64,000 bases of DNA from Sediminibacterium sp. (GTDB taxonomy: Bacteria; Bacteroidota; Bacteroidia; Chitinophagales; Chitinophagaceae). The position numbers and the translations under genes are program-made. Within the stretch, counting starts at the first letter, position 1, and each line of letters starts with the position of its first letter. The DNA is taken from assembly GCA_017537025.1 (NCBI GenBank), contig JAFWCB010000005.1:774104-838103 (forward strand). The letters run 5' to 3'. Positions 7,770 through 26,000 of this stretch are shown piece by piece. The notes under the pieces are model-generated. The model searched no databases, was not told the DNA's origin, and saw only the letters and a program-made list of their open reading frames with translations.

Positions 7770-10220
7770 ATGAAAAAGATATTGCTTGCTATTACTTTGT
7801 TGGTTGTAGTAACTACGCATGCCCAACTTACGGTTGAAAAAATTATGGCCGACACGCGCTGGATGGGCACTTCTCCATCAAATGTATTTTGGAGCAGCGA
7901 CAATAAAACGGTTTTCTTTAATTGGAATCCGCAAAAAAATATTTCAGATTCATTGTACAATTATACGGTGGGTGCAACGGCGCCACAAAAAGCAAACCCT
8001 TGGGATATTGCTAAAATAAACGCCATCAATAATGGTGTATATAATGTTGCCGGAACACAAATGGCATATGTGTTTCGTGGCGATTTGTATTGGGTTGACA
8101 TCAAAACCAACAAAACACTACGCATTACACAAACAGAAGAGTTTGAATCATCGCCTAAGTTTATCATGAATGATGAGTGGATAGCGTATTCAAAAAATAA
8201 TAATCTATTCGGATGGCATACAAAAACAGGTATTACCCTTCAACTCACCAATATTACACGTAGTGCTGAAACGGTTGCTGCTACTGCGTTTGCCGGTGGC
8301 AGAGGAGGTAGCGGTGGTAATTTTCAACGCCCGCCCGGAGCCCCTACTGCAGGAGGAGCGAATACTGCTTCTACACAAACACAAGATGGATGGCTTCAAC
8401 AGCAACAGCTTTCCATTTTTCAGGTATTAAAAGAAAGAAAAGATAAAAGAGAAAAACGCGATGCTTTTAATAAAACAGCGCCTAAGTATAATGATACGCT
8501 CAGAACAATTGGTATTGGAGAAAAAATTCTACAAGGCTTGCAGATTAGTCCGGATGCACGCTTTATAACCTATCGGTTATTTCAACCACCATCAACTTCA
8601 GGTAAAAACACTATTGTTCCTGATTATGTAACAGAGAGTGGATATACTACTGATATTCCCGGTAGAACGAAAGTGGGGAATCCTTTGGGTAAATCTGATT
8701 TCTATGTATGGGACAAACAAAAAGATACATTGATATTAGTGACCGTTGATTCGGTACCCGGTATTACTGATTTGCCGGATTATGCAAAGGACTATCCTAA
8801 AAAATATGAAGGAAAAAAAGCGCCTGTTCGCGGAGTAAACATCAACGGGCCATATTGGAATGATGCAGGAACTTTTGCCATTGTTGATATTCGGTCGCAG
8901 GATAATAAAGATCGATGGATCATGCAGCTGGATGCTGCTTCCGGAAAATTAATATTGCTCGATCGTCAACGCGATAATGCTTGGATTGGCGGACCGGGAG
9001 TTGGTGCTTTTGGTGCCAAAATTGGATGGATAAATAATACCAGTTTTTATTTTCAAAGCGAAGCCACCGGCTATTCTCATCTATATGTGTACGATATCAA
9101 CACAAACACTAAAAAAGCACTTACTAGCGGTAACTACGAAGTGCAGGATCTTGCGTTAAGCAAAAACAAACAGTATTGGTATTTACTCACCAATGAAACG
9201 CACCCCGGTAAACAGCATTGGTATAGAATGAAGCTGGATGGTAGTGCTAAAGAACGCATCACTAGTATGGACGGGGGTTATGAGGTATCGATGAGTGGTG
9301 ATGAAAAATGGATTGCGTATAGATATTCCTATATCAACAAACCATGGGAATTATATATCCAAGAAAACGCCCCGGGTAAAAAGCCGCAACAGGTTACAAC
9401 TATGGCTATGAGTGAGGAGTTTAAAGCGTACCCCTGGAAAGAAGCCAAGGTAGTAGGTATTCCTGCACGTGATGGTGCCACTATTTATGCGCGTATTTAT
9501 GAACCTGCTGCAGATAAGAAAAATGGAGCTGCCGTATTTTTTGTACACGGTGCCGGTTATTTGCAGAATGTACATTATTGGTGGAGTAGTTATTTCCGCG
9601 AGTATATGTTCAATAATTTATTGGCAGATAAAGGATATACAGTGGTTGATATCGACTACCGTGCAAGTAGTGGTTATGGTAGAGATTGGCGTACGGGTAT
9701 TTACAGACATATGGGAGGGAAGGATTTAACGGATCATGTGGATGCCGCAGATTATTTAGTAAAGAATTATGGTATAGACCCGGCCCGTATTGGTTTATAT
9801 GGCGGAAGTTATGGCGGTTTTATTACACTTATGGCACTATTCACCACACCCGATGTGTTTAAAGCCGGTGCTGCCTTGAGGCCGGTTACTGATTGGGCAC
9901 ATTATAACCATGGGTATACGGCTAATATTTTAAATGAGCCCGTAAATGATAGTATTGCCTACGCTAAATCATCGCCTATCAATTTTGCGGGTGGACTCAA
10001 AAACTATTTATTGATGTGCCATGGCATGGTAGATGTGAATGTTCATTTCCAAGATGTGGTTAGGCTTTCCCAAAAATTGATTGAGTTAGGAAAAGATAAT
10101 TGGGAATTAGCCGTGTATCCGGTAGAAGATCATGGTTTTGTAGAACCCAGTAGCTGGACGGATGAATATAAAAGGATTTTGAAGTTGTTTGATGAGAGAT
10201 TAAAGAAAAATAGTCCGTAG
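7770..10220 (+). CDS. Exported prolyl oligopeptidase-family (S9) peptidase
   Basis: 816 aa with a signal peptide (MKKILLAITLLVVVTTHAQ). Residues about 25-560 look like the DPP-IV-type beta-propeller, and residues about 580-816 are the alpha/beta-hydrolase domain. The nucleophile motif GGSYGG places Ser680; Asp755 (GMVDVNVHF) and His788 (VEDHGF) complete a likely triad. The family cleaves peptides, often after proline or alanine. The propeller is interrupted near residues 172-212 by a Gly/Pro/Gln-rich insertion. It lies 91 bp after the TonB receptor in the same direction, possibly one transcription unit. Confidence 0.9.
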   Translation: MKKILLAITLLVVVTTHAQLTVEKIMADTRWMGTSPSNVFWSSDNKTVFFNWNPQKNISDSLYNYTVGATAPQKANPWDIAKINAINNGVYNVAGTQMAYVFRGDLYWVDIKTNKTLRITQTEEFESSPKFIMNDEWIAYSKNNNLFGWHTKTGITLQLTNITRSAETVAATAFAGGRGGSGGNFQRPPGAPTAGGANTASTQTQDGWLQQQQLSIFQVLKERKDKREKRDAFNKTAPKYNDTLRTIGIGEKILQGLQISPDARFITYRLFQPPSTSGKNTIVPDYVTESGYTTDIPGRTKVGNPLGKSDFYVWDKQKDTLILVTVDSVPGITDLPDYAKDYPKKYEGKKAPVRGVNINGPYWNDAGTFAIVDIRSQDNKDRWIMQLDAASGKLILLDRQRDNAWIGGPGVGAFGAKIGWINNTSFYFQSEATGYSHLYVYDINTNTKKALTSGNYEVQDLALSKNKQYWYLLTNETHPGKQHWYRMKLDGSAKERITSMDGGYEVSMSGDEKWIAYRYSYINKPWELYIQENAPGKKPQQVTTMAMSEEFKAYPWKEAKVVGIPARDGATIYARIYEPAADKKNGAAVFFVHGAGYLQNVHYWWSSYFREYMFNNLLADKGYTVVDIDYRASSGYGRDWRTGIYRHMGGKDLTDHVDAADYLVKNYGIDPARIGLYGGSYGGFITLMALFTTPDVFKAGAALRPVTDWAHYNHGYTANILNEPVNDSIAYAKSSPINFAGGLKNYLLMCHGMVDVNVHFQDVVRLSQKLIELGKDNWELAVYPVEDHGFVEPSSWTDEYKRILKLFDERLKKNSP

Positions 10221-10257
10221 ACCGGAAGTCGAAAAGTCGGGCTTTGGCTAAGTGCCT

Positions 10258-10274
10258 GGCGCTAAGACGCAAAG
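10258..10274. repeat. Single-arm copy of family D repeat
   Basis: GGCGCTAAGACGCAAAG lies between the S9 peptidase and the first histidine kinase. It matches one arm of the hairpins at 12644-12695 and 28364-28422. Confidence 0.5.
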
Positions 10275-10341
10275 AATCAATATCCCAATAACTTAATAAT
10301 TAATTTATTGCTTAACTTGAAGGAGTAATAAATGCGCTTCG

Positions 10342-12648
10342 ATGCGGAAATATTTTTATTGCCTCCTACTAACTGCTTGGGTATTATGTTTTTTTAATAA
10401 AGCAAATGCGCAGACGGCTATTCCTGAAACGTATTTGATAAAAACAGATACGGCCGCAGAAATTCAACTAGAACGAAAATACTGGCGAGTATGGGATGAT
10501 AGCGCTACAAATACCAAATTTGAAGTGGTTTCTAGTCCCGTATTTGCCAATAGATTTCGCCAATTTGATACAGCCCAGCAATTTGATTTTTCTGTAAAAA
10601 CCTATTGGTTTAAATTCAAAATAAAGAATACTTTACAAAAAGATATTGAAATAGGCATTGCAGCAGAAGCGTCGGAGGCAGATATTTATTATTCCGACTC
10701 ATCTAAACAATGGAAGCATTTAGAGACCGGCTGGAATCGAAACAAGTTATCAAGAGATGGATATAAATATTTGAATACAGTTAGTATTGTATTAAATCCA
10801 AACCAAGAAATTTCAATATTTATTAGAAGACACAACTTGTTTAGATATATTATTCCTCAAAAAATTTCGGTTTATTTAATAAAAGCCTCTTTTGAAAAAA
10901 AGTTTGACTTAAAAAATACATTCACAGGAAAATCTAGTTTTGAAATAATTGTAAATGCATTTTTATTAGGATTGATAGTTATTACATGCATTTTCAATTT
11001 AACTTTTTACCGGGCCATTAAAGAGAAAGAATATCTCAATTTCTCTCTTTTTTTGATGTTTTTTGCACTTAATACGGTATTTGGTTTTTTTTCTGATTTG
11101 TTTTTTGGTGTACAAGGATACGCTTCGTTTATCCTTTTATTTATTACACTAATGCTCTGGTTTTTCTTTTTGATGCTTTTCATACAGTCTTTTTTTAGAA
11201 CAAAAACATATTTACCCAAATGGCATAAATTTTTAACTGTATATAATTATGTGGTTGCTGGGGCATGGATTTTTCAAATGTATTTGTTAAAAGCAGAAAT
11301 AACCACCTATTGGTTCGACAGATTACTTGATGCTAATTCATTACTTTATTTTCTATTTTTTGATTTTTTATTTATAACTATTTTCTTACTACTCTTTAAT
11401 AAAAAAGTAAAGATTAATACACGGTTACTGGCAACGGTTCCATTATTCTTTTTCTTTGGACCTGTATATACGGCTCAGCAATACTATTCTTTAGCAGAAA
11501 AGTATTTTAAAACAAAGCTGCCGCCATTTGTTCAATGGGTGAATGATTGGAACTCCTTGTTTACACTAATTGGTGTTTTTTGGATGATTTTATTTTTTTC
11601 TTGGCTTTTATTTAAGCGATATGAGACGTTACAAAAAAAATTAGTAGAGGAAGAAATTGAAAAAGAAAAAATGGCAAGAGAAATTGAAGAAGAGAAAAAC
11701 AGGATGATAGTGCAACAAAATGAAATACTAGAAAAGCAAGTGGCAGAAAGAACAAAAGCATTACAACAGTCGCTAGAAAATCTTCAATCTACCCAACAAC
11801 AACTCATCCAATCAGAGAAGATGGCAAGCCTGGGAGAGCTTACAGCCGGCATTGCGCATGAGATACAGAATCCGTTGAATTTCGTGAATAATTTCTCGGA
11901 GCTAAATAATGAATTGTTACAAGAGCTGGGACCACTCGACAAGCTCGGGGTGACAGCAGATCAGCAAGATATTCTAAAAGACCTTCAATCCAACTCCGAA
12001 AAAATCAATCACCACGGACAAAGGGCAGCAGCAATCGTAAAGGGTATGCTGCAACATTCAAGAACTTCATCCGGACAAAAAGAGCCAACCGATATCAATG
12101 CTTTATGTGATGAATATTTAAGACTAGCGTATCATGGATTAAGAGCAAAAGACAAGAACTTTAATGCAGAATTTAAAACAGTGTTTGATACAAGTATACC
12201 GAAAGTGAATATCGTACCTCAGGATATGGGAAGGGTGGTGTTGAACTTGATTAATAATGCGTTTTTCGCCGTCGCTGAGCGGCTGAAGGCTTGTCAGGCT
12301 GAGCCTGTCGAAGTCGACAAGCCTAATAACAGCGATGCAACCCTTCCCCGCCAAGGCGGGATAAACTCAGCTCAGGGTGACATCGATTATAACCCACTTG
12401 TTACAGTCACAACCAAAAACTTAGGGAACAAAATAGAAATCACGGTATCCGACAACGGAACGGGCATTCCTAATGAGATCAAAGAAAAGATCTTCCAACC
12501 TTTCTTTACAACCAAACCAACAGGACAAGGAACGGGGTTGGGGTTGAGTTTAGCGTATGATATAGTTACGAAAGTTCATAGCGGGAAGCTAACTGTGGAG
12601 AGTGAGCAAGGAAAGGGAACAACGTTTAAGATTGAGATACCAACTTAG
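10342..12648 (+). CDS. Sensor histidine kinase with 7TMR-DISM sensor (kinase 1)
   Basis: 768 aa. After a signal peptide (ending NANAQ), residues about 30-185 resemble the extracellular 7TMR-DISMED2 domain. Seven hydrophobic segments follow (about 200-425), then a charged coiled coil (EEEIEKEKMAREIEEEK..RTKALQQSL). The HisKA dimerization helix contains GIAHEIQNPLNFVNNFSEL with phospho-acceptor His506. The HATPase domain has NLINNAFFA (N box), SDNGTGIPNEIKEKIFQPFFTTK (G1/F boxes) and GTGLGLSLAYDIV (G2). Two in-frame palindromic inserts interrupt the core, at 11932-11955 and 12271-12390. No receiver domain or adjacent response regulator is present, so it is an orphan kinase. The stop codon lies inside a family D hairpin. 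Confidence 0.9.
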   Translation: MRKYFYCLLLTAWVLCFFNKANAQTAIPETYLIKTDTAAEIQLERKYWRVWDDSATNTKFEVVSSPVFANRFRQFDTAQQFDFSVKTYWFKFKIKNTLQKDIEIGIAAEASEADIYYSDSSKQWKHLETGWNRNKLSRDGYKYLNTVSIVLNPNQEISIFIRRHNLFRYIIPQKISVYLIKASFEKKFDLKNTFTGKSSFEIIVNAFLLGLIVITCIFNLTFYRAIKEKEYLNFSLFLMFFALNTVFGFFSDLFFGVQGYASFILLFITLMLWFFFLMLFIQSFFRTKTYLPKWHKFLTVYNYVVAGAWIFQMYLLKAEITTYWFDRLLDANSLLYFLFFDFLFITIFLLLFNKKVKINTRLLATVPLFFFFGPVYTAQQYYSLAEKYFKTKLPPFVQWVNDWNSLFTLIGVFWMILFFSWLLFKRYETLQKKLVEEEIEKEKMAREIEEEKNRMIVQQNEILEKQVAERTKALQQSLENLQSTQQQLIQSEKMASLGELTAGIAHEIQNPLNFVNNFSELNNELLQELGPLDKLGVTADQQDILKDLQSNSEKINHHGQRAAAIVKGMLQHSRTSSGQKEPTDINALCDEYLRLAYHGLRAKDKNFNAEFKTVFDTSIPKVNIVPQDMGRVVLNLINNAFFAVAERLKACQAEPVEVDKPNNSDATLPRQGGINSAQGDIDYNPLVTVTTKNLGNKIEITVSDNGTGIPNEIKEKIFQPFFTTKPTGQGTGLGLSLAYDIVTKVHSGKLTVESEQGKGTTFKIEIPT
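11932..11955 (+). repeat. In-frame family A repeat in kinase 1 (site 1)
   Basis: CCACTCGACAAGCTCGGGGT followed by GACA matches the intergenic element at 52986-53010 (CCCTTCGACAAGCTCAGGGT then GACA) with few changes. It encodes PLDKLGVT in the loop between the two helices of the dimerization domain, the same place where kinases 2, 3 and 4 carry inserts. Confidence 0.65.
12271..12390 (+). repeat. In-frame composite palindromic insert in kinase 1 (site 2)
   Basis: This replaces the short loop after NLINNAFFAV in the ATPase domain. It contains a hairpin with arms GCTTGTC and GACAAGC around AGGCTGAGCCT, a CCCGCCAAGGCGGG palindrome and a CTCAGGGTGACA word. It encodes about 40 residues, including CQAEPVEVDK and LPRQGG, that have no counterpart in typical kinases. 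The frame is kept. Confidence 0.7.
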
Positions 12649-12695
12649 CGTCTTCGCGTTTAATATTTCAACGCAAAGTCGCTAAGACGCTAAGG
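12644..12695. repeat. Family D hairpin over the stop codon of kinase 1
   Basis: Arms CTTAGCGTCTTCGCGT (12644-12659) and ACGCAAAGTCGCTAAG (12671-12686) pair at 14 of 16 positions around an 11-nt AT-rich loop. The TAG stop at 12646-12648 is inside the left arm. The same sequence follows kinase 4. With no U-tract it is not a classical terminator but could protect or end the transcript. Confidence 0.65.
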
Positions 12696-12729
12696 CTGAA
12701 AATGAAATAAGAATTTTTTTATAAAAGTC

Positions 12730-15700
12730 ATGAATCCAACTAAAAAACAGTTACTTAAAATAGCTTATCAGCGTGTATTAGCCGTAACGCTAATAGATAT
12801 GAAAGCGCCTTTAAAATGGGCGGATGAATATGTATCAGAATCAATAACTGGCTTTGGAACGGCGGCAGATGAAAAAGTCTTTTCCAAGAAAGATTATCGA
12901 GCAATTGTTATAAATAGTAGAAAGCAGGCAAAAGGATTGGTATTCAAATGTGAATTGAAAACCAAGTATAATCCCAAATTTACCGGAGAAAATACGGCCT
13001 GTTTTTTCGATGAATTTATTGTAACTGTTGGAAAGGGGAGCCGGCGAATGGTTATGCCTTTATCTCTTGGTTTAGTATTTGAGTTTTATGATAACAAATG
13101 GAAACTAATAGGATTGTATGCATCTAAAATTGATACGGATACGAGCTCTGAAGACACTTTTCATTTAGGCGAGGCAGAAAAGAAAATGCAGGAACTGCAA
13201 ATGCAAGTGGCTAAAAGAACGGAAGAGCTTAGTCAAAAAAATAACGAGTTAAAAATTGAGGCGGCGTTGGAGCGGGTGAGGGCTATAGCCATGAGCATGA
13301 ATAAAGCAGACGATATGTTGCTTATTTGCAAAGCCATTTCAGAACAACTAAAAATACTCGGGGTAAAAGAAATACGCAATGTGCAAACGGCCATTTTTTA
13401 TGAAAGCAAGGGCACTTACATGAATTATGAGTATTATGCTAAGCATAATAAAACCTTCATCACAGGTGTAGAGTATAAAAAGCATAAGATTCAATTAGCG
13501 TTTGCACAAAAAATGATGAAAGGGCCTAACGAAGAATTTGTAGAACAAATGAAAGGCAAAAAGCTGCAAGACTGGTATGCCTATCAAAAAACAACGAATC
13601 AATTTGCAGATAAATATTTATTGAAAGCCCATTCACTAAATTATTATTGGTTTTCATTGGGTCCGGTTGCATTGGGTATTTCAACATACTATCCACTTAC
13701 AAAAGTGGAGACAGGTTTATTCAAACGCTTTTTGAAAGTTTTCGAATTAGCTTATCGCCGATATCTGGATATTGAACAGGCAACGGCACAGGCAAGAGAA
13801 GCAAAGATTGAAGCAGCTTTAGAAAGGGTACGCGCCGCATCCATGGCAATGCATAAAAGTGAAGAACTGGCCGAAGTAATTCTTTCAATTGATAAGGAAA
13901 TTTCGACACTCAATATAAATATTGATAATTCATCTATCATTACGGACTTCCGTGATTTGAAAACCGGCCTTAATAATTGGATTGCGGTGAAAGGGAGAAA
14001 ATTTCTTCAAAAATTTTATATTCCCTATTCAAACGATCATCTCCTGACAAAACGGATGAAAAGGGCAATCAAGACAGGCGAGCACTTCTATGTGGAGCAG
14101 TATTCAAAATCAGAAAAAAACACATACTTCAAATGGCTGTTTAAGTATTCTGATTTTAGAAACCTGCCAGATGATCGAAAAGAGTATGTTTTAGCCCGCG
14201 AGGGGTGGACCCGTGTATTGATCTTTTCAAAAAATTCATTTTTGATATTTCAACGATATGACCGTAGATGTTTCACAAATGAAGAAGTTGAAATTTTTAA
14301 GCGTTTTGGAAAAGTTTTTGAACAAGCCTACACCCGCTTCCTCGATTTACAAAAAGCAGAAGCGCAGGCAATAGAGGCCCAGATCGAAGCAGCTTTAGAA
14401 AGAGTAAGGGCCAAAAGCATGGCCATGCATACGAGTAGTGAAATTATGGAAGTGGTTTATTTGATAGCAGATCAGCTAAAAGATTTGCGTGTTCAATCGG
14501 ATGCAACTTCTATCATCATTCTTCATGATGATGCCTACGAATATTGGAATGCCAATAATCAACAAACCTACGCTAACAGTCAACTGCAAAAAATTGATAA
14601 ATCCTTTGATGGTGTAGTAAATCAGGATATCATAAAGCATAGTAAACTTACAAAAGATTTTTCGCGCAGCTATTCAAAACAAGAAAAAAACAAGCATTGG
14701 AAATGGCTCTTCCGAATGGAAGGCGGGTTTAAATATATTCCTGAGCAAAGAAAAAAATTTATACTTAGTCAGCCTCATTACAATCTTGCAGTATCATTTA
14801 CAAAAAAGATAGCCTTAGTACTTGTAAAATACCAAAGTGCAACTGCTTATACCGATCCCGAAAGAGCGGTACTTAAAAGATTTGCAGAAGTTTTTGATCA
14901 ATGCTATACCCGCTTCCTCGATTTACAAAAAGCGGAAGAGCAAGCAAGGGAAGCACAGATAGAAGCTGCATTGGAAAGAGTCAGAGCCAAAAGCATGGCA
15001 ATGCAGCAGCCGAATGAATTAAGAGAAGTTGCTGAATTATTACGGAAAGAAATGGGGGTATTGGGAATAGAAGCATTAGAAACCAGTTCTATTTATTTGG
15101 TACATCCTACTATTACTGAGTGTTGGTATGCTATTAAAGATGTGCGACAGAAAAATGCAAAGTTGTTGAGTGATTACATGGAAATTCAGTTGAGTGAAAC
15201 ATGGGTAGGTAGGGAAATGCAAAAATTTTATAAAGGCAGGCAAAAGCAAGCATCCATAGTGATGAAGGGTAATCATAGAAAAGAATGGATTAATTATTGT
15301 GCCGGTAAATCGAGCGGTTTAAAAAATTATTATGGCAAAGAAATTCCTGAACGAACCTATCATGTTCTCAAGTTTGCAGGTGGTTATATGGGTGCGGTAT
15401 CACCGGGCGAATTATCATCAGAAAATTGGGATGTATTAGGAAGAGCCACTACTGTTTTTGCATTGGCCTATACGCGATTTAAAGATTTGCAAGAGTCAGC
15501 GAATAGAGCAAGAGAAGCGCAGATTGAATTGGCTTTAGAAAGAGTGAGAGCCAAAAGTATGGCCATGCATAAAAGTGATGAACTGAAAGAAGTGATAAAG
15601 GTGGTGCTGGAGCAGCTTGTTCATCTCAACATCAAAGCAGAGCATGCAGGGTTTTATATTGATTATAAAGCCCATGATGATATGCATATCTGGCTGGCAG

Positions 15701-18700
15701 ACCCGAATATTGATCCTTTTTACGCAGTGCTTCCCTATTTTGATTCGCCCACATGGAAAAGTTTTTTAGATGCCAAAACAACCGGAAAAAGTTTTTATAC
15801 AGACCTTTTGGATTATAAGGCAAAAAATAAATTCTATAAATCCCTATTTAATATATTTAATGTACCTGAAGAAGCGCAGCAATTTTATCTGAAATGTAAG
15901 GGACTCGCTGTATCTACTGTATTGCTGGAAAATGTAGGGTTGTACATCGAAAACTTTTCTGCTATTCCCTATACTGAAGAAGAGAATAAAATATTGATGC
16001 GCTTTGCCAAAGTATTCGAACAATCATATACCCGCTTCCTCGATTTACAGAAAGCAGAAGCGCAGGCCAGAGAAGCGCAGATTGAAGTGGCATTGGAAAG
16101 AGTGAGAACAAATGCTATGGCATTGAGAGATAGTAAGGAATTGAGTAGCATCATCACAATCATTTTTAAAGAACTTCAAAATTTAGGATTGGCTGTTTAT
16201 GAAACAGGGATTTATTTAAGAAAAGAAAATAGCAGAGAGTTTACAGTTTGGGGTAAAAGTGTAACAGATGATGATTTCTTTACAAATTATGAGTTCGCTT
16301 TTGTAGATCATTATATATTAAATCAAGTTATTAAAAATTTAGATAGTAATATTCCTTATGCGACTTTTGATTTAATAGGAAATGAGGTAAAGGATTATTT
16401 AGACTTTTATTTTTCTCTTGAGCAATTCAAAACAATACCACAAAAAACAAGAAAACAATATTATGCGGTAAAGAAAATTTTTGTAGCGCACGCCTATTTT
16501 CAACACGGATTTTTAGAAATATCCGGAACCGACCCTCTGCCTATTGAAATGTCTGCTCTACTCAAAAGATTTACACAAGTAATTGATTTGGCATACACCC
16601 GCTTCCTCGATTTACAAAAAGCGGAAGCACAGGCAAGGGAAGCGCAAATTCAATTGGCATTAGAAAGGGTACGAGCAAGAACGATGGCCATGCAGCGTAG
16701 CGAAGAATTACTTGAAACCTCTTTAGAGCTGTTTCAGCAATTAAAAGAATTAGGCGAGCCTGCTGAACAACTAACCATTGGTGTAATAAAAGAAAAAGAA
16801 AATATCGTTGAGGTTTCTGCTACAGTTAATGGATTAAAGTTGTTAAAAACTTTTGGGCATGATATCAACGAGCCTTTTGTAATGAATAAAATGTACAAAG
16901 CATGGAAGGCCGGAATAAAAACAATGGTAATAGAGCAAGATTGGAAAGAATTGCAAGCCTACAACCGATATCGTAATAAACTGGTACAAGAGGAACTGTT
17001 TTCTTTGAAGTTTAAGCCCGGAGATAAACGGATATTGTATGTTGCTTTTCATTCAAAAGGAACTTTGGTACTATCTAGTAATGAACCTCGTCCGAAAGAA
17101 ACACTAGAATTATTAATAAGATTTTCAGCTGTATTTGAAGAAGCATATACCCGCTTTCTTGATTTACAAAGAGCGGAAGCACAGGCAAGGGAATCACAGA
17201 TACAATTGGCATTAGAGAGAGTTCGCGGAAGAACTATGGCTATGCAGAAAAGTGATGAATTAGCTGAAACGGCCGCCTTACTTTTTCATCAAGTAAAATC
17301 ATTGGGTATTGAATCGTATAGCAGTGGCTTTACAGTTTGGGAAAATAACGACGAGGAACTCGTATCGTGGATGTGTAATGCAGATGGTTCTATTAATCCG
17401 CCATTCAGAATGCCAACTAAAGAAGTTGAATGGCATCGTAAACAATATAAATCATGGAAACATAAAGAAGAATATATTATTTACGATTTCAAAGGAAAGG
17501 AAATGCAGCAGCACTATGCTTATTTAAGATCCTTTCCTTTATTGGATGAAGCGTTTAAAAAATCTGAAGTTGCAGGAGTTGTCACTCCACCAAGACAGGT
17601 ACATAATGCCTTTAACTTCTCACAGGGCAATTTACTTTTCATCACATTAGAGCCTGTTCCCGAAGCACATGATATTTTTAAGCGTTTTGCAAAAGTTTTC
17701 GAACAAACGTATACGCGGTTCCTTGATCTCCAAAAAGCAGAGGCTCTGGCAAGAGAAGCCAAGATAGAAACGGCATTAGAGCGTATAAGGAGTCGTACTA
17801 TGGGTATGCAAAAAAGTGATGAACTAAATGAAGTAGCTTTTATACTTTTTGAACAAATAAGAATATTAGGTGGCCAATTGTGGGGCACAGGCTTTGTTTT
17901 GTGTGATGTATCGGAAGGTGAAGATCAATTCTGGTTTGCTAATGAAATGGGTGTAAGGCCTCCTGTAAATATTCCTAATACAGAAGATGAAGTACATATC
18001 GGCATGCTACAAGGCTGGAAAGAAAACCATGATTACCTAAGATTGCAAAAAGAAGGCCAAGCCCTGGCAGATCACTACAGGTATCTCAGTTCTCTACCAC
18101 AAATGAAAGCATTCTTCGATCCAATGCTTTCTGCGGGTTTTGAATTTCCTTCATTTCAACAATGGCATGCTGCTTATTTTTCAAAAGGGTATTTACTTTT
18201 CATTACCACAGAACCATATGCAGAACCAGATCTTTTTAAGCGTTTCGCCAAAGTGTTCGACCAAACCTATACCCGCTTCCTAGATCTTCAAAAAGCAGAA
18301 GCGCAAGCAAGAGAGGCGCAGATAGAAGCGGCTTTGGAACGAGTGCGCTCACGTTCTCTGGCTATGCATAAGAGTGACGAGCTACAACAAGTTGTAACAA
18401 CACTTTTTGATCAGCTTCATTTTTTAAACATCGAAAACGATGCCACAGGTATTGTAATTTTTAAACCTGACACAAATCATTTTCAATATTGGTTTGCCAA
18501 CGCCGAGAGAAGTATCAGTAGTTATTTCCTACTAGAGTATAAAAAATTTTCTTTTACCAATGAGCTGAGTATTGCTCACCAAAGCGGGGAGGCTTATTTT
18601 CATAAAATTTATTCCAAGGAAGAAAAGAATGAATTTTATACCAGAATATTAACAGAAACGGATTTTACAAGGTTGTCCGATGAGCGGAAAAAACTCATTC

Positions 18701-21700
18701 TTGAGTCGGAAGGGTTTACCATTTTAGCGCCACTCAACAAAAACACGGCTTTACAGCTAAATCGCTATTACAAAAAATCTTTTTCTGATATCGATATTGA
18801 AGTTGCAAGAAGATTCGGTAATGTTTTCGAGCAAGCCTATACCCGCTTCCTCGATTTACAAAAAGCAGAAGCGCAGACTAGAGAAGCTCAGGTGGAGGCC
18901 GCACTAGAGCGCGTGAGATACAGGGCAATGGCAATGCAAACAAGTGCTGATGTTGGAGAAGCCACAGCTACTATGTTTGCAGAACTTGATGCGCTTGGAA
19001 TTGAAACCTTTCGATGTGGCATTGCTATCTGTAAAGATCAGGAAATGGAAGTATGGTCTGTGGGTGTAACAACGGAAGGAAAAATGGTTCAGGGAGTGGG
19101 GACGCTCGACATATATCTACACCCACTCTGGGAATTATTTTATAAGCAATGGAGCCATAACGAAGAGTTCTTATATTATTTTTTAAAGGATAAAGAAAAA
19201 GAGGACTATGTTCGGATCATAAAAAATACAACCAGCTATCAACTAACGGATAAAAAAATTAATTTTCCAGACTTACATTTTCAGTCTTATTTCTTTTCTG
19301 AGGGAGGTATATTCTCCTTTTCTATTCATGCACATACAGAGGAAGAAAAGTGGGTGATGAAGCGCTTTGCAAAAGTGTTTGCCTTAACCTATAAACGGTA
19401 TGAAGACCTTAAGCTGGCAGAAGCCCAGGCAAGAGAGTCGCAGATTCAGTTAGCATTAGAAAGAATTCGTGCAAGAACAATGGCCATGCAGAAGAGTGAG
19501 GAACTACCGGAAACCTCTTTATTACTTTTTCAACAAATGAAAGAATTAGGAGAAACGGCAGTGCAAAATTCAATTGGTATTCTTAAAGAAGAAGAAGGAG
19601 TCGTTGAATTATCTACAACGGTACAAGGGCAGGCCGAACCAAGATCCTTACGTGTTCCTATGGATGACCCCCATATTATGGCTAAGGCTGTTGCTGCATT
19701 GAAAGCAAAACAAAAATCATTAATAGTTGAGATCAAAGGAGAAGAATTAAAAGAGTATAATAAATTCCGTAATGGTTTTTTAGAAAGAAAAACGAATTTC
19801 CCTGAAGACAATTGGATTGTTAATGTTATTTTCTTTTCCAAAGGCTGGTTATCATTTTCTTCCAATCACAAAATATCTGATGAATCTTTTCAGCTTTTAG
19901 AACGATTTGCGGCAGTATTCGAACAAACCTATACTCGCTTCCTCGATTTACAAAGGGCAGAAGCCCAGGCAAGAGAAGCGCAAATAGAAGCAGCATTGGA
20001 AAGGGTGCGTAGCAAAGCGATGGCCATGCATAATAGTAGCGATTTACCTTCAACTGCAATCATTGCTTTTTCTGAACTAAAAAAATTAGGCTTTGTTCCT
20101 ATCCGCGGAGGTATCAGTATTCAAAATAAAGAGAATAGAAAAAACTTACTATACTCAGCAACTACTACGGAACAAGGAGATAATTTATCGATTGTTGGCT
20201 GGGCGCTGCTCGATAACCACCCCGTACTGACAGAAATTTATAATCATTGGATTGAGGGCAAAGATTATTACCCCGAATTACATGGTGAGCTTCTCAAATC
20301 TTATTATGAGCAGGTAAGCACTAGTTTTAATGTACCTGCAGAACAAACGGAGATAGACCAATATGGTTATTTTATGTATTTCACCCATGGTGTATTTTAT
20401 GGGTGGTGTAATCAACCGGTTAATGAAGATGAAAAGAAATTATTGAAAAGATTTGCTTCAGTAATAGACCTCACTTTCAAAAGATATTTTGATTTACAAA
20501 AAGCCGAAGAGCAAGCTAGAGAAGCGCAAATAGAAGCCTCTTTAGAAAAAGTACGTTCGGTAGCCATGAGCATGCATCATTCAAATGAGCTACTCAATAT
20601 CTGCGAAGCTATTTATGCAGAGCTTATTAAATTGGGAATGATAGAGCTCCGTAACACAATGATCAATATTCACAACGATGCAGAAGAAACATTTTTAAAT
20701 TATGATTACTCGGCTTATGCGGGGAGGGCTGTAACCAAATACGGATATCATATCCATCCTATTATCAATCATTTGGTAATGCAATGTCGATCGGCTCAGG
20801 ATGCTTTTGTGGATATTGCATTTGATGGAAAAGAATTTGAGGAGTGGCGCAGTTTCAGAAAAGCCAGTGGCGAAAAAGATGACGCTCGACTAAAAAAAAT
20901 AACTCATTTACATTATTACTTCTACTCCATAGGCATCGGCTCTATTGGTATTTCTACTTTTGAAAGTATTGATGAGCAAAAAATGGCTTTGCTTAAACGC
21001 TTTCGAAATGTATTTCAACTTGCCTACCAGCGATTTACAGATTTGTCTGCTGCAGAAGCGCAAGCCCGTGAAGCACAGATAGAAACCGCTTTAGAGAGAG
21101 TACGTAGCCGTACCATGGCTATGCAAAACAGTAATGAATTATCGGCAACTGTACAAGTAATGTTTGAAGAATGTAGAAAATTACAACCAATATCAACAGA
21201 TAGTTTAAGTAGGGGTTTTATAACTACCATTCATCAAAGTAAAAAAATGTTTGATTTGTGGATTACAGAGATTGATGGAACAAAAATCGATACTCAATTC
21301 AAAATTAGTTTTGATGAACCTACAACCGGTATTCATATTCATAAAGCCTGGAAACAAAAAAAGCCCTACTTTATAAATGATTTGCAAGGACCTGTATTGG
21401 AGCAATGGCTGGATTATTTAGAGTCAACCGGTTTCAAAATTGCTCCGGGTATTAGAGGAACAAGAAGGGTAAATACTTTTATTTTTTATTCGAATGGATT
21501 CATTGGTATCACATCATCAGTTCCACTTGAAGAGGAAAATATTCAAATTCTACAACGGTTTGCAAAAGTTTTCGATCAAACCTATACTCGCTTTTTAGAT
21601 TTACAAAAAGCAGAAGCGGCGGCTAAGGAAGCTATTAAGCAGGCCGCCCTAGATAGAATCCGAGCCGATATTGCTTCGATGCGTACCATAGAAGATCTCA

Positions 21701-23055
21701 ATCGCATCACCCCGCTTATTTGGAATGAATTAACCATTCTTGGCGTTCGGTTTATTCGTTGTGGTGTATTTATTATGGATGAAGAAGTTGAACAAATACA
21801 TACTTTTCTATCTACGCCGGATGGAAAATCAATTGCTGCATTCCATTTAAGCTTTACAGAATCAGAAAACATTATTGATGTAGTTAGCCACTGGCGAAAT
21901 AAAAAAGTGTACAGCAATCATTGGGATGAAAAAGACTTTGATGTGCTAGCCGATTCCTTAGTAAAGCAAAAGGCAATAACTACTAAATCCAGTTATTTGC
22001 AAAGCATACCCGCAACCGGCATTCACCTGAATTTCCTTCCCTTTTTGCAGGGCATGTTATATGTAGGGAACGAAATGCCATTAAAGCCAGATGAAATTGA
22101 TCTCCTGCAAGCTGTAGCAGATGCTTTCTCTACTGCTTATGCGCGGTATGAAGATTTCAATAAGCTGGAGGCTGCAAAACAAGTTGTAGAGAAAACACTA
22201 AACGAATTAAAATCTACTCAGCAACAATTGATTCAATCAGAAAAAATGGCTTCACTCGGTGAACTCACAGCAGGCATTGCACACGAGATTCAGAACCCGT
22301 TAAACTTTGTAAATAATTTTAGTGAGTTGAATGTGGAATTATTGGAAGAACTGCAAACTGAGATGAGACCCCTCCTCGCCGAAGGCGAAGTCGGGGTGAC
22401 GGCGCTCATTGATGATATCAAGAATAACTCCGAAAAGATCAATCATCATGGACAAAGAGCTGCGTCGATAGTTAAAGGCATGCTACAACACAGTAGAAGC
22501 AGCAGTGCCACTAAAGAGCTAACCGATATCAATGCTTTGTGTGATGAATATTTAAGATTGGCTTATCACGGACTAAGAGCGAAAGACAAGAGCTTTAATG
22601 CGGAGTTTAAAACTGAGTTTGATGCTACTATACCCAAGGTGAGCATTGTACCTCAGGATATGGGAAGAGTGGTGTTGAACTTGATCAATAATGCGTTTTT
22701 CGCCGTAGGCGAAAGGGGGAAGGCAGAAGGAGGAAGCCATAAGGTTGAAGCAATAAGTAGTGAGGAAAAAGGTATTCCTTCCGGCTTACAGCCTACACCT
22801 TATAGCCCGATTGTTACAGTAAGCACCAAAAACTTAGGGAATAAAATAGAGATCCGTGTAACCGACAACGGCACAGGCATACCGAGCGAAATCAAAGAAA
22901 AAATCTTCCAGCCCTTCTTCACTACCAAACCAACAGGACAAGGAACAGGTCTAGGTTTAAGCCTTGCGTACGATATCGTTACCAAAGCGCATGGTGGAGA
23001 GTTGAGGGTAGAGAGCGAGGAGGGAAAAGGAACTGTTTTCAAAATAATCATTTAG
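12730..23055 (+). CDS. Giant cytoplasmic histidine kinase with sixteen tandem sensor modules (kinase 2)
   Basis: 3441 aa, roughly 0.4 MDa, with no signal peptide or membrane segment seen. Residues about 1-150 resemble an NTF2/SnoaL-like domain (KWADEYVSESITGFGTA, VFEFYDNKWKLIGLYASKI). A coiled coil leads into sixteen modules of 180-192 aa. Each opens with a signalling-helix motif like IEAALERVRAKSMAMHKSDEL, continues with a GAF-sized alpha/beta domain, and closes with FAKVFEQTYTRFLDLQKAEAQAREAQ, which runs into the next module. After module 16 come the dimerization helix (GIAHEIQNPLNFVNNF, His3185) and the HATPase (NLINNAFFA, TDNGTGIPSEIKEKIFQPFFTTK, GTGLGLSLAYDIV). The core carries in-frame inserts at 22367-22402 and 22703-22809. 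There is no receiver domain. Kinase 3 follows after 10 bp. The GAF-like assignment is inferred; the ligands are unknown. Confidence 0.88.
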   Translation: MNPTKKQLLKIAYQRVLAVTLIDMKAPLKWADEYVSESITGFGTAADEKVFSKKDYRAIVINSRKQAKGLVFKCELKTKYNPKFTGENTACFFDEFIVTVGKGSRRMVMPLSLGLVFEFYDNKWKLIGLYASKIDTDTSSEDTFHLGEAEKKMQELQMQVAKRTEELSQKNNELKIEAALERVRAIAMSMNKADDMLLICKAISEQLKILGVKEIRNVQTAIFYESKGTYMNYEYYAKHNKTFITGVEYKKHKIQLAFAQKMMKGPNEEFVEQMKGKKLQDWYAYQKTTNQFADKYLLKAHSLNYYWFSLGPVALGISTYYPLTKVETGLFKRFLKVFELAYRRYLDIEQATAQAREAKIEAALERVRAASMAMHKSEELAEVILSIDKEISTLNINIDNSSIITDFRDLKTGLNNWIAVKGRKFLQKFYIPYSNDHLLTKRMKRAIKTGEHFYVEQYSKSEKNTYFKWLFKYSDFRNLPDDRKEYVLAREGWTRVLIFSKNSFLIFQRYDRRCFTNEEVEIFKRFGKVFEQAYTRFLDLQKAEAQAIEAQIEAALERVRAKSMAMHTSSEIMEVVYLIADQLKDLRVQSDATSIIILHDDAYEYWNANNQQTYANSQLQKIDKSFDGVVNQDIIKHSKLTKDFSRSYSKQEKNKHWKWLFRMEGGFKYIPEQRKKFILSQPHYNLAVSFTKKIALVLVKYQSATAYTDPERAVLKRFAEVFDQCYTRFLDLQKAEEQAREAQIEAALERVRAKSMAMQQPNELREVAELLRKEMGVLGIEALETSSIYLVHPTITECWYAIKDVRQKNAKLLSDYMEIQLSETWVGREMQKFYKGRQKQASIVMKGNHRKEWINYCAGKSSGLKNYYGKEIPERTYHVLKFAGGYMGAVSPGELSSENWDVLGRATTVFALAYTRFKDLQESANRAREAQIELALERVRAKSMAMHKSDELKEVIKVVLEQLVHLNIKAEHAGFYIDYKAHDDMHIWLADPNIDPFYAVLPYFDSPTWKSFLDAKTTGKSFYTDLLDYKAKNKFYKSLFNIFNVPEEAQQFYLKCKGLAVSTVLLENVGLYIENFSAIPYTEEENKILMRFAKVFEQSYTRFLDLQKAEAQAREAQIEVALERVRTNAMALRDSKELSSIITIIFKELQNLGLAVYETGIYLRKENSREFTVWGKSVTDDDFFTNYEFAFVDHYILNQVIKNLDSNIPYATFDLIGNEVKDYLDFYFSLEQFKTIPQKTRKQYYAVKKIFVAHAYFQHGFLEISGTDPLPIEMSALLKRFTQVIDLAYTRFLDLQKAEAQAREAQIQLALERVRARTMAMQRSEELLETSLELFQQLKELGEPAEQLTIGVIKEKENIVEVSATVNGLKLLKTFGHDINEPFVMNKMYKAWKAGIKTMVIEQDWKELQAYNRYRNKLVQEELFSLKFKPGDKRILYVAFHSKGTLVLSSNEPRPKETLELLIRFSAVFEEAYTRFLDLQRAEAQARESQIQLALERVRGRTMAMQKSDELAETAALLFHQVKSLGIESYSSGFTVWENNDEELVSWMCNADGSINPPFRMPTKEVEWHRKQYKSWKHKEEYIIYDFKGKEMQQHYAYLRSFPLLDEAFKKSEVAGVVTPPRQVHNAFNFSQGNLLFITLEPVPEAHDIFKRFAKVFEQTYTRFLDLQKAEALAREAKIETALERIRSRTMGMQKSDELNEVAFILFEQIRILGGQLWGTGFVLCDVSEGEDQFWFANEMGVRPPVNIPNTEDEVHIGMLQGWKENHDYLRLQKEGQALADHYRYLSSLPQMKAFFDPMLSAGFEFPSFQQWHAAYFSKGYLLFITTEPYAEPDLFKRFAKVFDQTYTRFLDLQKAEAQAREAQIEAALERVRSRSLAMHKSDELQQVVTTLFDQLHFLNIENDATGIVIFKPDTNHFQYWFANAERSISSYFLLEYKKFSFTNELSIAHQSGEAYFHKIYSKEEKNEFYTRILTETDFTRLSDERKKLILESEGFTILAPLNKNTALQLNRYYKKSFSDIDIEVARRFGNVFEQAYTRFLDLQKAEAQTREAQVEAALERVRYRAMAMQTSADVGEATATMFAELDALGIETFRCGIAICKDQEMEVWSVGVTTEGKMVQGVGTLDIYLHPLWELFYKQWSHNEEFLYYFLKDKEKEDYVRIIKNTTSYQLTDKKINFPDLHFQSYFFSEGGIFSFSIHAHTEEEKWVMKRFAKVFALTYKRYEDLKLAEAQARESQIQLALERIRARTMAMQKSEELPETSLLLFQQMKELGETAVQNSIGILKEEEGVVELSTTVQGQAEPRSLRVPMDDPHIMAKAVAALKAKQKSLIVEIKGEELKEYNKFRNGFLERKTNFPEDNWIVNVIFFSKGWLSFSSNHKISDESFQLLERFAAVFEQTYTRFLDLQRAEAQAREAQIEAALERVRSKAMAMHNSSDLPSTAIIAFSELKKLGFVPIRGGISIQNKENRKNLLYSATTTEQGDNLSIVGWALLDNHPVLTEIYNHWIEGKDYYPELHGELLKSYYEQVSTSFNVPAEQTEIDQYGYFMYFTHGVFYGWCNQPVNEDEKKLLKRFASVIDLTFKRYFDLQKAEEQAREAQIEASLEKVRSVAMSMHHSNELLNICEAIYAELIKLGMIELRNTMINIHNDAEETFLNYDYSAYAGRAVTKYGYHIHPIINHLVMQCRSAQDAFVDIAFDGKEFEEWRSFRKASGEKDDARLKKITHLHYYFYSIGIGSIGISTFESIDEQKMALLKRFRNVFQLAYQRFTDLSAAEAQAREAQIETALERVRSRTMAMQNSNELSATVQVMFEECRKLQPISTDSLSRGFITTIHQSKKMFDLWITEIDGTKIDTQFKISFDEPTTGIHIHKAWKQKKPYFINDLQGPVLEQWLDYLESTGFKIAPGIRGTRRVNTFIFYSNGFIGITSSVPLEEENIQILQRFAKVFDQTYTRFLDLQKAEAAAKEAIKQAALDRIRADIASMRTIEDLNRITPLIWNELTILGVRFIRCGVFIMDEEVEQIHTFLSTPDGKSIAAFHLSFTESENIIDVVSHWRNKKVYSNHWDEKDFDVLADSLVKQKAITTKSSYLQSIPATGIHLNFLPFLQGMLYVGNEMPLKPDEIDLLQAVADAFSTAYARYEDFNKLEAAKQVVEKTLNELKSTQQQLIQSEKMASLGELTAGIAHEIQNPLNFVNNFSELNVELLEELQTEMRPLLAEGEVGVTALIDDIKNNSEKINHHGQRAASIVKGMLQHSRSSSATKELTDINALCDEYLRLAYHGLRAKDKSFNAEFKTEFDATIPKVSIVPQDMGRVVLNLINNAFFAVGERGKAEGGSHKVEAISSEEKGIPSGLQPTPYSPIVTVSTKNLGNKIEIRVTDNGTGIPSEIKEKIFQPFFTTKPTGQGTGLGLSLAYDIVTKAHGGELRVESEEGKGTVFKIII
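13255..22170 (+). repeat. Sixteen-unit intragenic repeat array in the giant kinase
   Basis: Unit starts, taken at the I/V-E-x-A-L-E-R motif, are 13255, 13807, 14383, 14959, 15523, 16081, 16648, 17200, 17764, 18322, 18892, 19444, 19984, 20530, 21079 and 21637. The spacing is 540-576 bp. DNA is best conserved at unit junctions (TATACCCGCTTCCTCGATTT then ACAAAAAGCAGAAGCGCAGGC), while the module interiors are diverged. Some units pair by sequence: 1 with 14, 7 with 12, 8 with 9, and 2, 3 and 10. Confidence 0.9.
22367..22402 (+). repeat. In-frame 36-bp element in kinase 2 (site 1)
   Basis: The core palindrome is CCTCGCCGAAGGCGAAG, ending in TCGGGGTGACGG. It adds twelve codons (around RPLLAEGEVGVT) between the two dimerization helices. 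The element is identical to the one at 27674-27709 in kinase 4, and its GGGGTGAC end matches family A. Confidence 0.7.
22703..22809 (+). repeat. In-frame family B insert in kinase 2 (site 2)
   Basis: It begins at the GTAGGCGAAAGGGGGAAGG end of the N-box loop and contains GCCATAAGGTTGAAGC and, about 50 bp on, CACCTTATAGCCC, whose complement is GGGCTATAAGGTG. It encodes the ERGKAEGG..SGLQPTPYS loop. Kinase 4 has a close copy; the same words occur upstream of mnmG. Confidence 0.6.
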
Positions 23056-23065
23056 AACTGATAAT

Positions 23066-26000
23066 ATGATAAAAGTAATTGGCTTTTTGCTTCTAATCGG
23101 AATGACGTTCGTGTCATTTGCCCAAAATCCTAATCCACTTGCATTTTATAAAGTGGAGAAATATGATTCAAAAAGTGGAATGCCCGCTGATTTCATTACG
23201 AATACCTATCAAACAAAAGATGGGTTTATATGGATGACCACATATAATGGATATCTACGATTTGATGGAAAAAAGTTTACGAATTTTAATTCAACTAATA
23301 CCCCACTCATAAAAACAGACAATAATTCAAGTTTATTTATAGAATCAAAAGACAGTACACTTTGGCTTCCTACCGGAATGGGATTATTGGCATATAAAAA
23401 TGGTATTTTCAAAAGCTATTTAACAAACTATCCAAATATTTTCCTTCAAGGCACAACTAAAAATGGGGATCTTATTCTAAGTTCAACTAAGAAAGATAAA
23501 CGTAATTGGCTTGTTTTCAATATTACTACACATCAATCAACCACAATAAAAGAAGATGACTTCTTATCTATAAAAAACAGTACAGGGACTGATAAAACAA
23601 CCGAAAAAGATAATTGGTTTGTAAAGGATTATAAAATCATACATAAAGAGAAAAATGGAGTATGGAGAACATTAGGTGAGAAAGAGGGGATTAGATCGAA
23701 TATTTTCTTTCATAAAGATGGCTTTTTTGTAGATAGTAAAAATAGAGTATGGCTTACATCTTTATATGGCCTTTTTTTATGGGATGGATTGAGATTTAAT
23801 TTATTTCCGGGAATGGAAAAAATGGTAACACCTAATTCAAATCCAAGCTTTGGTTATATGACAGAAGATAACCAGCAGGGCATCTGGGCATCTATTGATA
23901 ATACTTTAGCGTATTTACCCAACAATGAATCTAGATTTCTGGTATTCCCTAAACAATTTATAAACATTCAAACATTACAGAATATTTCAATTGATAGAGA
24001 GCAGAATATTTGGGTGGCTACAGATAGGGGTTTATATAAGATTTCGAAAACCAAGGTGGTTAACTATGCAGAAGCGGAGGGTATTATAAATAATAGAGTG
24101 TCAAGTGTAAGTGAAATATCACCCAATAAATTTTTAATTACTTCGACCAATGATCAACTCTATATCTTAGAAAACAAAAAAATAAGACCATTTAAAATTG
24201 CTGACAACAAAGTATTAAAAGAGGTAAAAAACTTTATTAGCAACACGGCTGACAGCAAAGGTAATATTTGGCTAGGGCATCAAAAAGGAGTTCTTTGCAT
24301 AAGTAAGAATAAGGTAATTAATTTTAAAACGCCCAACCAGGTAAGATATATAGAGGAAGGGAAAGATGGAAAAATTTATATAGCCGTCGCTTTTACCGGT
24401 ATAGGCATTATTAACGAGCGTAAAGAATTGAAAATGTTGAATGTACCGAACGCAGACTTTTCACTAGATTATTTCAGTTCGTTACACCATTTAAAAGATG
24501 GGTCTATATTAACAACAACATATAGAACCGGCGCTATGATCATTGCAAAGAATGGGGATATCAAAAAAATTGATCTTTTTAATGGCATTACAGGGATAGC
24601 TATTTTTAATGCGTTTGAGCTTACCGATGGAACTATCTGGTTTGCCACAGCAAAAGGATTAATAAAACTTCAAAACGATAAGGTGGTTTCTATCGACAAA
24701 AACGCAGAACTACCCGAATCCGCCATTTTTGGTATTCTTCCCGATAAGAGCGGAAATTGGTGGTTTCCCTCAAATAAAGGAATAATATATGCCCCTTATA
24801 GTGAGATTGATTTATTTACAAGAAACAATAAAGCAAAAATCAACTGGAAAATAATTGATGATGCAGATGGAATGAATAACAAACAGTGTGTTGGTGCTAG
24901 ACATTCTATCATTGGAAGCGATGGCAACCTATACGTTGTAAGTATCGGTGGTTTGGTAGAGGTTAATCCTGAAAAGTTACTCACTAATAATCTTCCTCCG
25001 CTAGTATCTATTAATCAATTAAGGGTAGATGATTCATTATATTTTTCAAAGCAGGTGAATAATATTTCTCCCGGAAGTCATAGGTATATTTTTGAATATA
25101 GTGCATTGAGTTTTGTTGCGCCTGAAAAAAATAAAATCTATTTTAGGTTGGTTGGTCAGGATGCAGATTGGATTCGATCTACGGGAGAGAATAGGGCTAT
25201 TTATACAAATCTTTCTCCGGGCAAATATCGGTTTGAAGTAAAAGCTACAAATAATGATGGCGTATGGAGTGAAAATTCAGTAAACTTTGAATTTACTGTT
25301 CAACCTTTCTTTTATCAAACTAATTGGTTTAAGGTGGCAGTTGTTATTTTTTCAATTTTATTGATATGGCAAATTATTAATTGGAGAACTAGCGTTGTGA
25401 GAGAGGCAAATATTAGACTAGAGAATATAGTCAATCAAAGAACTAAAGAGTTGCAAGAGTCTCTCGAAAATTTAAAACAAACCCAATCCCAACTTATTCA
25501 ATCCGAAAAAATGGCAAGCCTAGGAGAATTGACAGCTGGAATCGCGCATGAGATTCAGAATCCGTTGAATTTTGTGAATAATTTTAGTGAGTTGAATGTG
25601 GAGTTGATAGAAGAGCTAAAAGGTATAAGGAAAAAGGTGGAAGGCGATAGGATACAGGGAATAGGAAATAGAGAACAAGAAGAAGAAATACTGAATGATA
25701 TAAGAGAGAACTCTGAAAAAATCAATCATCACGGACAAAGAGCTGCATCGATAGTGAAAGGCATGCTACAACATAGTAGAAGCAGCAGTGCCACCAAAGA
25801 GCCAACCGATATCAATGCTTTGTGTGATGAATATTTAAGACTGGCATATCATGGATTAAGAGCAAAAGACAAGAGCTTTAATGCAGAATTTAAAACAGAG
25901 TTTGATACAAGTATACCGAAAGTGAATATCGTACCTCAGGATATGGGAAGGGTGGTATTGAATTTGATCAATAATGCGTTTTTCGCGGTCGCTGAGCGGA

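Follow-up and report, generated by a model that had tools for sequence, protein, structure and literature searches.

Signalling helices and coiled coils are known to act as relays between sensor and output domains, and kinases, cyclases and SpoIIE phosphatases are output classes commonly regulated by sensors. Exchange of units in modular proteins is familiar from PKS/NRPS assembly lines. Histidine kinases with many inputs have been described in cyanobacteria, where one kinase can carry up to 19 PAS domains (PMC10468136), so a large number of sensors is not new in itself. The passages of that paper that concern these kinases describe domain counts and not an exchange of cassettes.

We analyzed a window of 64,000 nucleotides from a draft genome of Sediminibacterium sp. 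(3.19 Mb, 29 contigs, 94.7% complete). A single frame at 12730-23055 on the plus strand, with an ATG start and no internal stop, encodes 3441 residues, as the first-pass annotation of this DNA had claimed. Sixteen helix starts of the [A/S]LERVR type are spread over residues 179-2973, and the 16 modules, of 180-192 residues each, together fill residues 171-3150; the sixteen modules of about 185 residues proposed earlier are thus present. As in the multi-PAS cyanobacterial kinases, many sensor-type domains stand in series ahead of one kinase core. A profile of the module gave 16 matches at E ≤ 0.001 in the draft genome, every one inside this frame. The array gene and the neighboring kinases are laid out below, with amino acid identities to modules of related loci: L050, from a metagenome-assembled genome (MAG) labelled uncultured Flavihumibacter; L131, from the same genus as the window; and L096.

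10342-12648, plus strand: 7TMR-DISM histidine kinase, neighbor with a closely similar core
12730-13239, plus strand: NTF2/SnoaL-like N-terminal domain and coiled coil, residues 1-170 (SnoaL_3 21.6 bits, cut-off 22)
13240-13791, plus strand: module 1, a type usually at the first position; 96% to L050 module 1
13792-14367, plus strand: module 2, without L050 counterpart
14368-14943, plus strand: module 3, without L050 counterpart; 83% to L131 module 3
14944-15507, plus strand: module 4, 99% to L050 module 3
15508-16065, plus strand: module 5, 100% to L050 module 4
16066-16632, plus strand: module 6, without L050 counterpart
16633-17184, plus strand: module 7, without L050 counterpart
17185-17748, plus strand: module 8, without L050 counterpart
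17749-18306, plus strand: module 9, without L050 counterpart
18307-18876, plus strand: module 10, 99% to L050 module 7
18877-19428, plus strand: module 11, without L050 counterpart
19429-19968, plus strand: module 12, without L050 counterpart; 83% to L096 module 9
19969-20514, plus strand: module 13, 95% to L050 module 8
20515-21063, plus strand: module 14, without L050 counterpart
21064-21621, plus strand: module 15, 97% to L050 module 9
21622-22179, plus strand: module 16, a type usually at the last position; 93% to L050 module 10
22255-22497, plus strand: HisKA phospho-acceptor domain (PF00512, 25.2 bits, slightly below the cut-off of 26.9)
22654-23046, plus strand: HATPase_c catalytic domain (PF02518, 74.1 bits, cut-off 26.4)
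23066-26311, plus strand: Reg_prop/Y_Y_Y histidine kinase, neighbor with a closely similar core
26308-28368, plus strand: TPR histidine kinase, neighbor with a closely similar core

The remaining parts of the protein also agree with the earlier description. The NTF2-like start is borderline in the window by its SnoaL_3 score, and all nine relatives scored, drawn from 62 ORFs with an N-terminus of similar size, exceed the cut-off. Arrays that lack an NTF2-like start (L143, L055, L062, L070 and others) often open with a conserved helical segment of about 80 residues or a minimal coiled coil. A single kinase core follows the modules: HATPase_c is well above its cut-off, the H-box GIAHEIQNPLNF is present beside the weaker HisKA match, and the residues that we take to form the H, N, G1, F and G2 boxes appear intact by eye. 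The highest 19-residue hydropathy mean is 1.31 and no transmembrane segment is evident, which supports a soluble protein. The modules common to the window and L050 have a dN/dS of 0.053, and the gene is under purifying selection.

The identity of the modules themselves is harder to place. They average 28.5% identity among themselves, unevenly spread: each terminal helix is about 50% identical and the core 14.5%; the pair 7 and 12 is 54% alike. Searches of Pfam and NCBIfam returned no convincing match for the 16 window modules or for 86 representatives of module types, among the best 25 families of longer lists. A GAF-like fold had been expected, yet GAF and PAS are both absent from all 15 Pfam families matched by any window module, and from the 25 of 53 Pfam families listed for the type representatives; the lack of a PAS match among listed families also distinguishes the modules from those of the multi-PAS kinases. 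Among Pfam matches of the representatives, DUF5647 had the best score (E 0.00042, in one member) and DUF2388 recurred most often (10 members, best E 0.073); we judged both to be chance matches. Profile searches of the PDB, two in all, gave E-values of 0.02 or worse and no relative of the module.

The same genome encodes a tandem-GAF kinase (G000:C19:746496-750344, a 1568-residue frame with six GAF_2 matches and one HATPase_c match), a class that resembles the array in having small, helix-joined cytoplasmic domains upstream of a kinase. The array differs from these proteins in having no outstanding GAF profile match, a linker signature with a constant length of 21 residues, and certain module types preferred at its ends. 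Alignment of the module profile to 11 of the 12 GAF_2 stretches of this genome (one was left out because of a stop in its extended translation) gave E 0.048 over 25 columns in hhalign, and 20 PAS stretches gave E 0.49. The GAF score beat five other controls, yet reversed modules scored higher (E 0.00055; probability 30%, versus 1.1% for GAF). Since the reversed modules gave the strongest score, we treat the GAF signal as noise that proves nothing; assignment to GAF or PAS by profile comparison failed, and a GAF-like fold is only a suspicion. The domain merits its own family entry, as it is carried by many proteins and no Pfam or NCBIfam model for it was found. Our search of the open-licence PubMed Central literature found no description of this module family or of its exchange, so that within that literature we did not find either the unnamed family or its cassette-like behavior described.

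The connections between modules are far more uniform than the modules. We examined 821 junctions, of which 744 could be scored and 77 lacked a motif. In 742 of the 744, 21 residues separate the end-helix motif of a module from the start-helix motif of its successor, whereas the length of full modules ranges from 179 to 204. Proline and glycine together make up 1.7% of 69 linker columns versus 9.3% of the core, and the outer 20 columns at either module end retain 56-71% identity between pairs selected for core identity below 22%. This fixed spacing, low Pro/Gly content and likeness of the ends fit a continuous helix in fixed register. A continuous helix of fixed length with similar inputs on kinases, cyclases and SpoIIE phosphatases would be in keeping with known signalling-helix relays; the difference is that here the helix recurs at every junction, at the very points that delimit gained and lost modules. 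We also considered homogenization of linkers by gene conversion within arrays. Codon sharing among the linkers of an array (0.488 versus 0.404 expected; 0.442 versus 0.381) is barely above the between-array level; it gives the idea weak support and does not establish that gene conversion between linkers is frequent.

Comparison with close relatives indicates, at the level of sequence, that arrays acquire, lose and swap entire modules at these conserved connecting helices, which is our main result. The flanks of L050 are syntenic with the window (DNA 91-94% identical), and its array has 10 modules. Seven of these equal window modules 1, 4, 5, 10, 13, 15 and 16 at 93-100% amino acid identity and stand in the same order; the nine window modules 2, 3, 6-9, 11, 12 and 14 have no counterpart in L050, and three L050 modules have no equivalent in the window array. 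The blocks of matching DNA (listed if they exceeded 300 nt or 80% identity) begin and end at module junctions. Two pairs of adjoining blocks overlap in L050, by 115 and 53 nt, as expected if units were lost or gained between linker repeats. Similarly, the array of Algoriphagus ornithinivorans has 11 modules and that of A. algorifonticola 9; two whole modules make up the difference, and the remainder are 95-99% identical. In L131, the module 4 and module 3 types stand in reversed order relative to the window.

This pattern holds across nine close array pairs, picked from a list of close arrays, with some arrays recurring between pairs. We counted block ends inside the arrays, using blocks with 78% identity or more over at least 350 nt and setting aside ends within 150 nt of the array ends. 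Of 42 such ends, 40 lie between -90 and +75 nt of a junction, and the remaining two are at -140 and +77. That interval is 165 nt of a period of about 558 nt, and would hold about 30% of ends if these were uniform. Block ends fall in linkers partly because conserved linker DNA extends the alignments, and selection removing inexact exchanges could also contribute. None of the 432 modules in which both halves could be matched, of 921 examined, was chimeric. Synonymous divergence decides nothing about how recent the exchange was, because dS of the modules common to the window and L050 (0.08-0.60) overlaps that of the flanking genes (0.14-0.63).

The modules belong to a large repertoire that is shared across lineages. 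At 50% identity, 905 full modules fall into 142 types, 56 of them with a single member; the type of window module 5 is among the common ones, with 59 members. We took 581 modules from 68 complete kinase arrays with at least three modules, out of 141 ORFs kept, and asked where the closest relative of each lay. For 571 it was in another genome and for 10 in the module's own array, with a median best match of 74% in the other genome and 37% within the array; the cross-genome median was still 73% once the nine closest array pairs were removed. In a first version of this count other arrays of the same genome were allowed as "other"; a repeat restricted to different genomes (62 genomes) again gave 10 of 581 and left the order counts unchanged.

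Position within the array is partly conserved. Of 66 first modules, 56 have their best match in a first module and 10 in an inner one; of 68 last modules, 57 best match a last module and 11 an inner one, so the end positions are preferred and not absolute. Among inner modules of 224 array pairs, 303 module pairs are concordant in order and 146 discordant; descent therefore contributes. Divergence of the first module shows almost no correlation with that of the kinase (Spearman 0.06); for the last module the value is 0.43. In 61 of 2204 different-genome array pairs (75 discordant pairs when same-genome arrays are allowed), an inner module is at least 80% identical while the kinase is at most 70% identical. 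Six hand-picked pairs of this kind have inner modules at 86-89% identity with kinase cores at 48-60%, MnmG at 67-74% (five pairs) and AsnS at 70-76% (five pairs). Horizontal exchange would be the simplest reading of this cross-genome likeness; exceptional constraint on some module types may be an alternative.

The module family occurs in 10 of 101 sampled genomes of the genus, 48 of 294 of the family and 35 of 395 of the phylum (the window's own genome included each time); up to 11 candidates per genome were scored in the family scan and up to 8 in the phylum scan, so that a genome may have more matches than were counted. The named loci belong to Chitinophagaceae, Cytophagales (Algoriphagus, Belliella, Spirosoma), Bacteroidales, Ignavibacteria and a Calditrichales MAG. 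These 80 loci are the ones nearest module 1 among 508 confirmed stretches, so arrays with the module 1 type at the first position are over-represented. Modules in L085 and L051 (MAGs labelled Proteobacteria and Ignavibacteria) are 82% and 79% identical to window modules, which reflects either wide transfer or wrong binning. A plasmid search with window module 5 gave no match.

We retrieved 60 array regions, a part of the arrays found. The non-duplicate set of 141 ORFs includes 92 closed ones, 74 of them with kinase motifs. The number of full modules in these runs from 0, where the matches are partial, up to 22. The window array is third among these 74, behind arrays of 22 and 20; the longest is from an isolate, Algoriphagus lacus (22 modules, 4607 residues), and one cut ORF likewise has at least 20. 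Long arrays thus recur in other assemblies, isolates among them. It is fair to say, as the first-pass annotation does, that most kinases carry no more than a few sensor domains, but within this family 16 modules are unexceptional.

Similar arrays also precede enzymes other than kinases. Of the 18 closed ORFs that lack both kinase motifs, 3 end in a nucleotide cyclase (PF00211) and 6 in a SpoIIE phosphatase (PF07228); the rest are one kinase with a slightly different motif and 8 fragments or ORFs running into undetermined sequence. The presence of similar arrays ahead of three unrelated output enzymes is the best evidence that the arrays are inputs. Together with the fixed spacing and low Pro/Gly content of the linkers, it indirectly favors the earlier proposal of sensor-like modules relayed by helices to one kinase; the GAF fold in that proposal found no such backing.

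The array gene lies within a run of four consecutive histidine kinases (10342-12648, 22180-23055 and 23066-28368) that have different sensors and closely similar, mosaic-looking cores. Over 90 alignment columns, the array-gene core is 100% identical to that of the TPR kinase and 48-51% identical to those of the other two neighbors, which suggests gene conversion or core swapping. The L050 array core aligns continuously with DNA downstream of the window TPR kinase, so cores too may be exchanged. Across the 40 kb of the comparison, the listed L050 matches include neither the 7TMR-DISM nor the Reg_prop kinase, apart from their cores, nor the sensor part of the TPR kinase (window 10208-12729 and 23046-27511); the neighboring kinases may turn over too. 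A stretch with a Fic/Doc-family gene (window 32120-33178) likewise has no listed L050 match, and at that place L050 has about 3 kb of other DNA. Another kinase with the same motif lies within 2.5 kb of 39 of the 52 array kinases with enough flank. No response regulator was found in the neighborhood of the window array gene, and among 60 other arrays just 3 are within 1.5 kb of a receiver domain. Small receiver-domain proteins just upstream of the array kinase in a Pararhodonellum genome and in a Cyclobacteriaceae bacterium (L119:9084-9467 and L122:8547-8939) are possible partners.

A long repetitive frame in a draft genome of 29 contigs, with linkers alike at the DNA level, could be a chimera of several shorter array genes. 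We consider this very improbable: no exact direct repeat in the frame exceeds 36 nt, the separately deposited L050 has seven of the modules in the same order between syntenic flanks, all modules detected in the genome sit in this one frame, and other long arrays occur in isolates and unrelated assemblies. The frame does not look like an assembly artefact, and there is no sign of a broken or chimeric gene. The arrays might have grown only by duplication of modules in tandem inside a single gene and their later divergence, as is usual for repeat proteins, the differences between relatives being losses from a longer ancestor. The likeness of modules 7 and 12, the conserved order of 303 of 449 inner module pairs and the existence of arrays with 20-22 modules speak for such a history. 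We rejected it for the most part because the closest relative of 571 of the 581 modules lies in another genome, and it also has to accommodate the opposite order of the module 3 and 4 types in L131, inner modules that, in the pairs checked, resemble each other across lineages more than kinases or housekeeping proteins do, and the fact that all 16 copies detected in the genome lie in the array gene, so that no other donor is seen there. We regard it as unlikely.

The array might instead be a ruler or scaffold, as the first-pass annotation had suggested, in which length or multivalent binding matters and sensing does not. Regular unit size and long continuous helices would suit this function. 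The number of modules differs between close relatives, however (16 versus 10, and 11 versus 9); cores of the same type are alike across species and those of different types strongly unlike; and the arrays feed three catalytic output classes. We think a spacer role quite improbable.

Overall, the best explanation, which we consider reasonably probable from the sequence comparisons, is that the modules are exchangeable cytoplasmic sensor cassettes that signal through helical linkers to an output enzyme. The array protein would be a cytoplasmic histidine kinase with many inputs, and each module a small sensor-like cassette with a variable core, probably ligand-binding and perhaps GAF-like in fold, between two conserved helices. 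The C-terminal helix of each module would continue into the N-terminal helix of the next at fixed length, making the array one long relay, presumably a parallel dimer, through which the conformational state of any cassette could reach the HisKA/HATPase core, where many signals might be integrated. The relay idea derives from general knowledge of helix-coupled sensors. Recombination in linker DNA would insert, delete or replace whole cassettes, and we propose that the register stays unbroken because the junction helices are alike. Since whole cassettes would move, arrays would be mosaics drawn from a repertoire common to several species, with mostly dedicated types at the first and last positions. 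By analogy only, this recalls the gain, loss and replacement of whole modules in PKS/NRPS; the array modules would be signalling inputs and not catalytic steps, and we claim no homology.

In a broader and more tentative form, which we find plausible without leaning toward it, Bacteroidota and neighboring lineages would hold a common library of well over a hundred cassette types, each reading its own cytoplasmic signal and exchanged horizontally as a whole via a standard helical linker, in arrays of 1 to 22 cassettes flanked by the adaptors preferred at the first and last positions, with kinase, cyclase or phosphatase outputs. The finding bears on the question of how signalling proteins gain new inputs while keeping control of the output. 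Close relatives differ by whole modules with their junctions kept, and nature may thus have repeated the experiment of swapping inputs often. If this is confirmed, nature's own linker would be a standard connector for the construction of multi-input sensors, and the module types would offer a set of cytoplasmic sensors that is still unexploited; if module exchange holds, the array kinase would be a natural plug-in sensor board.
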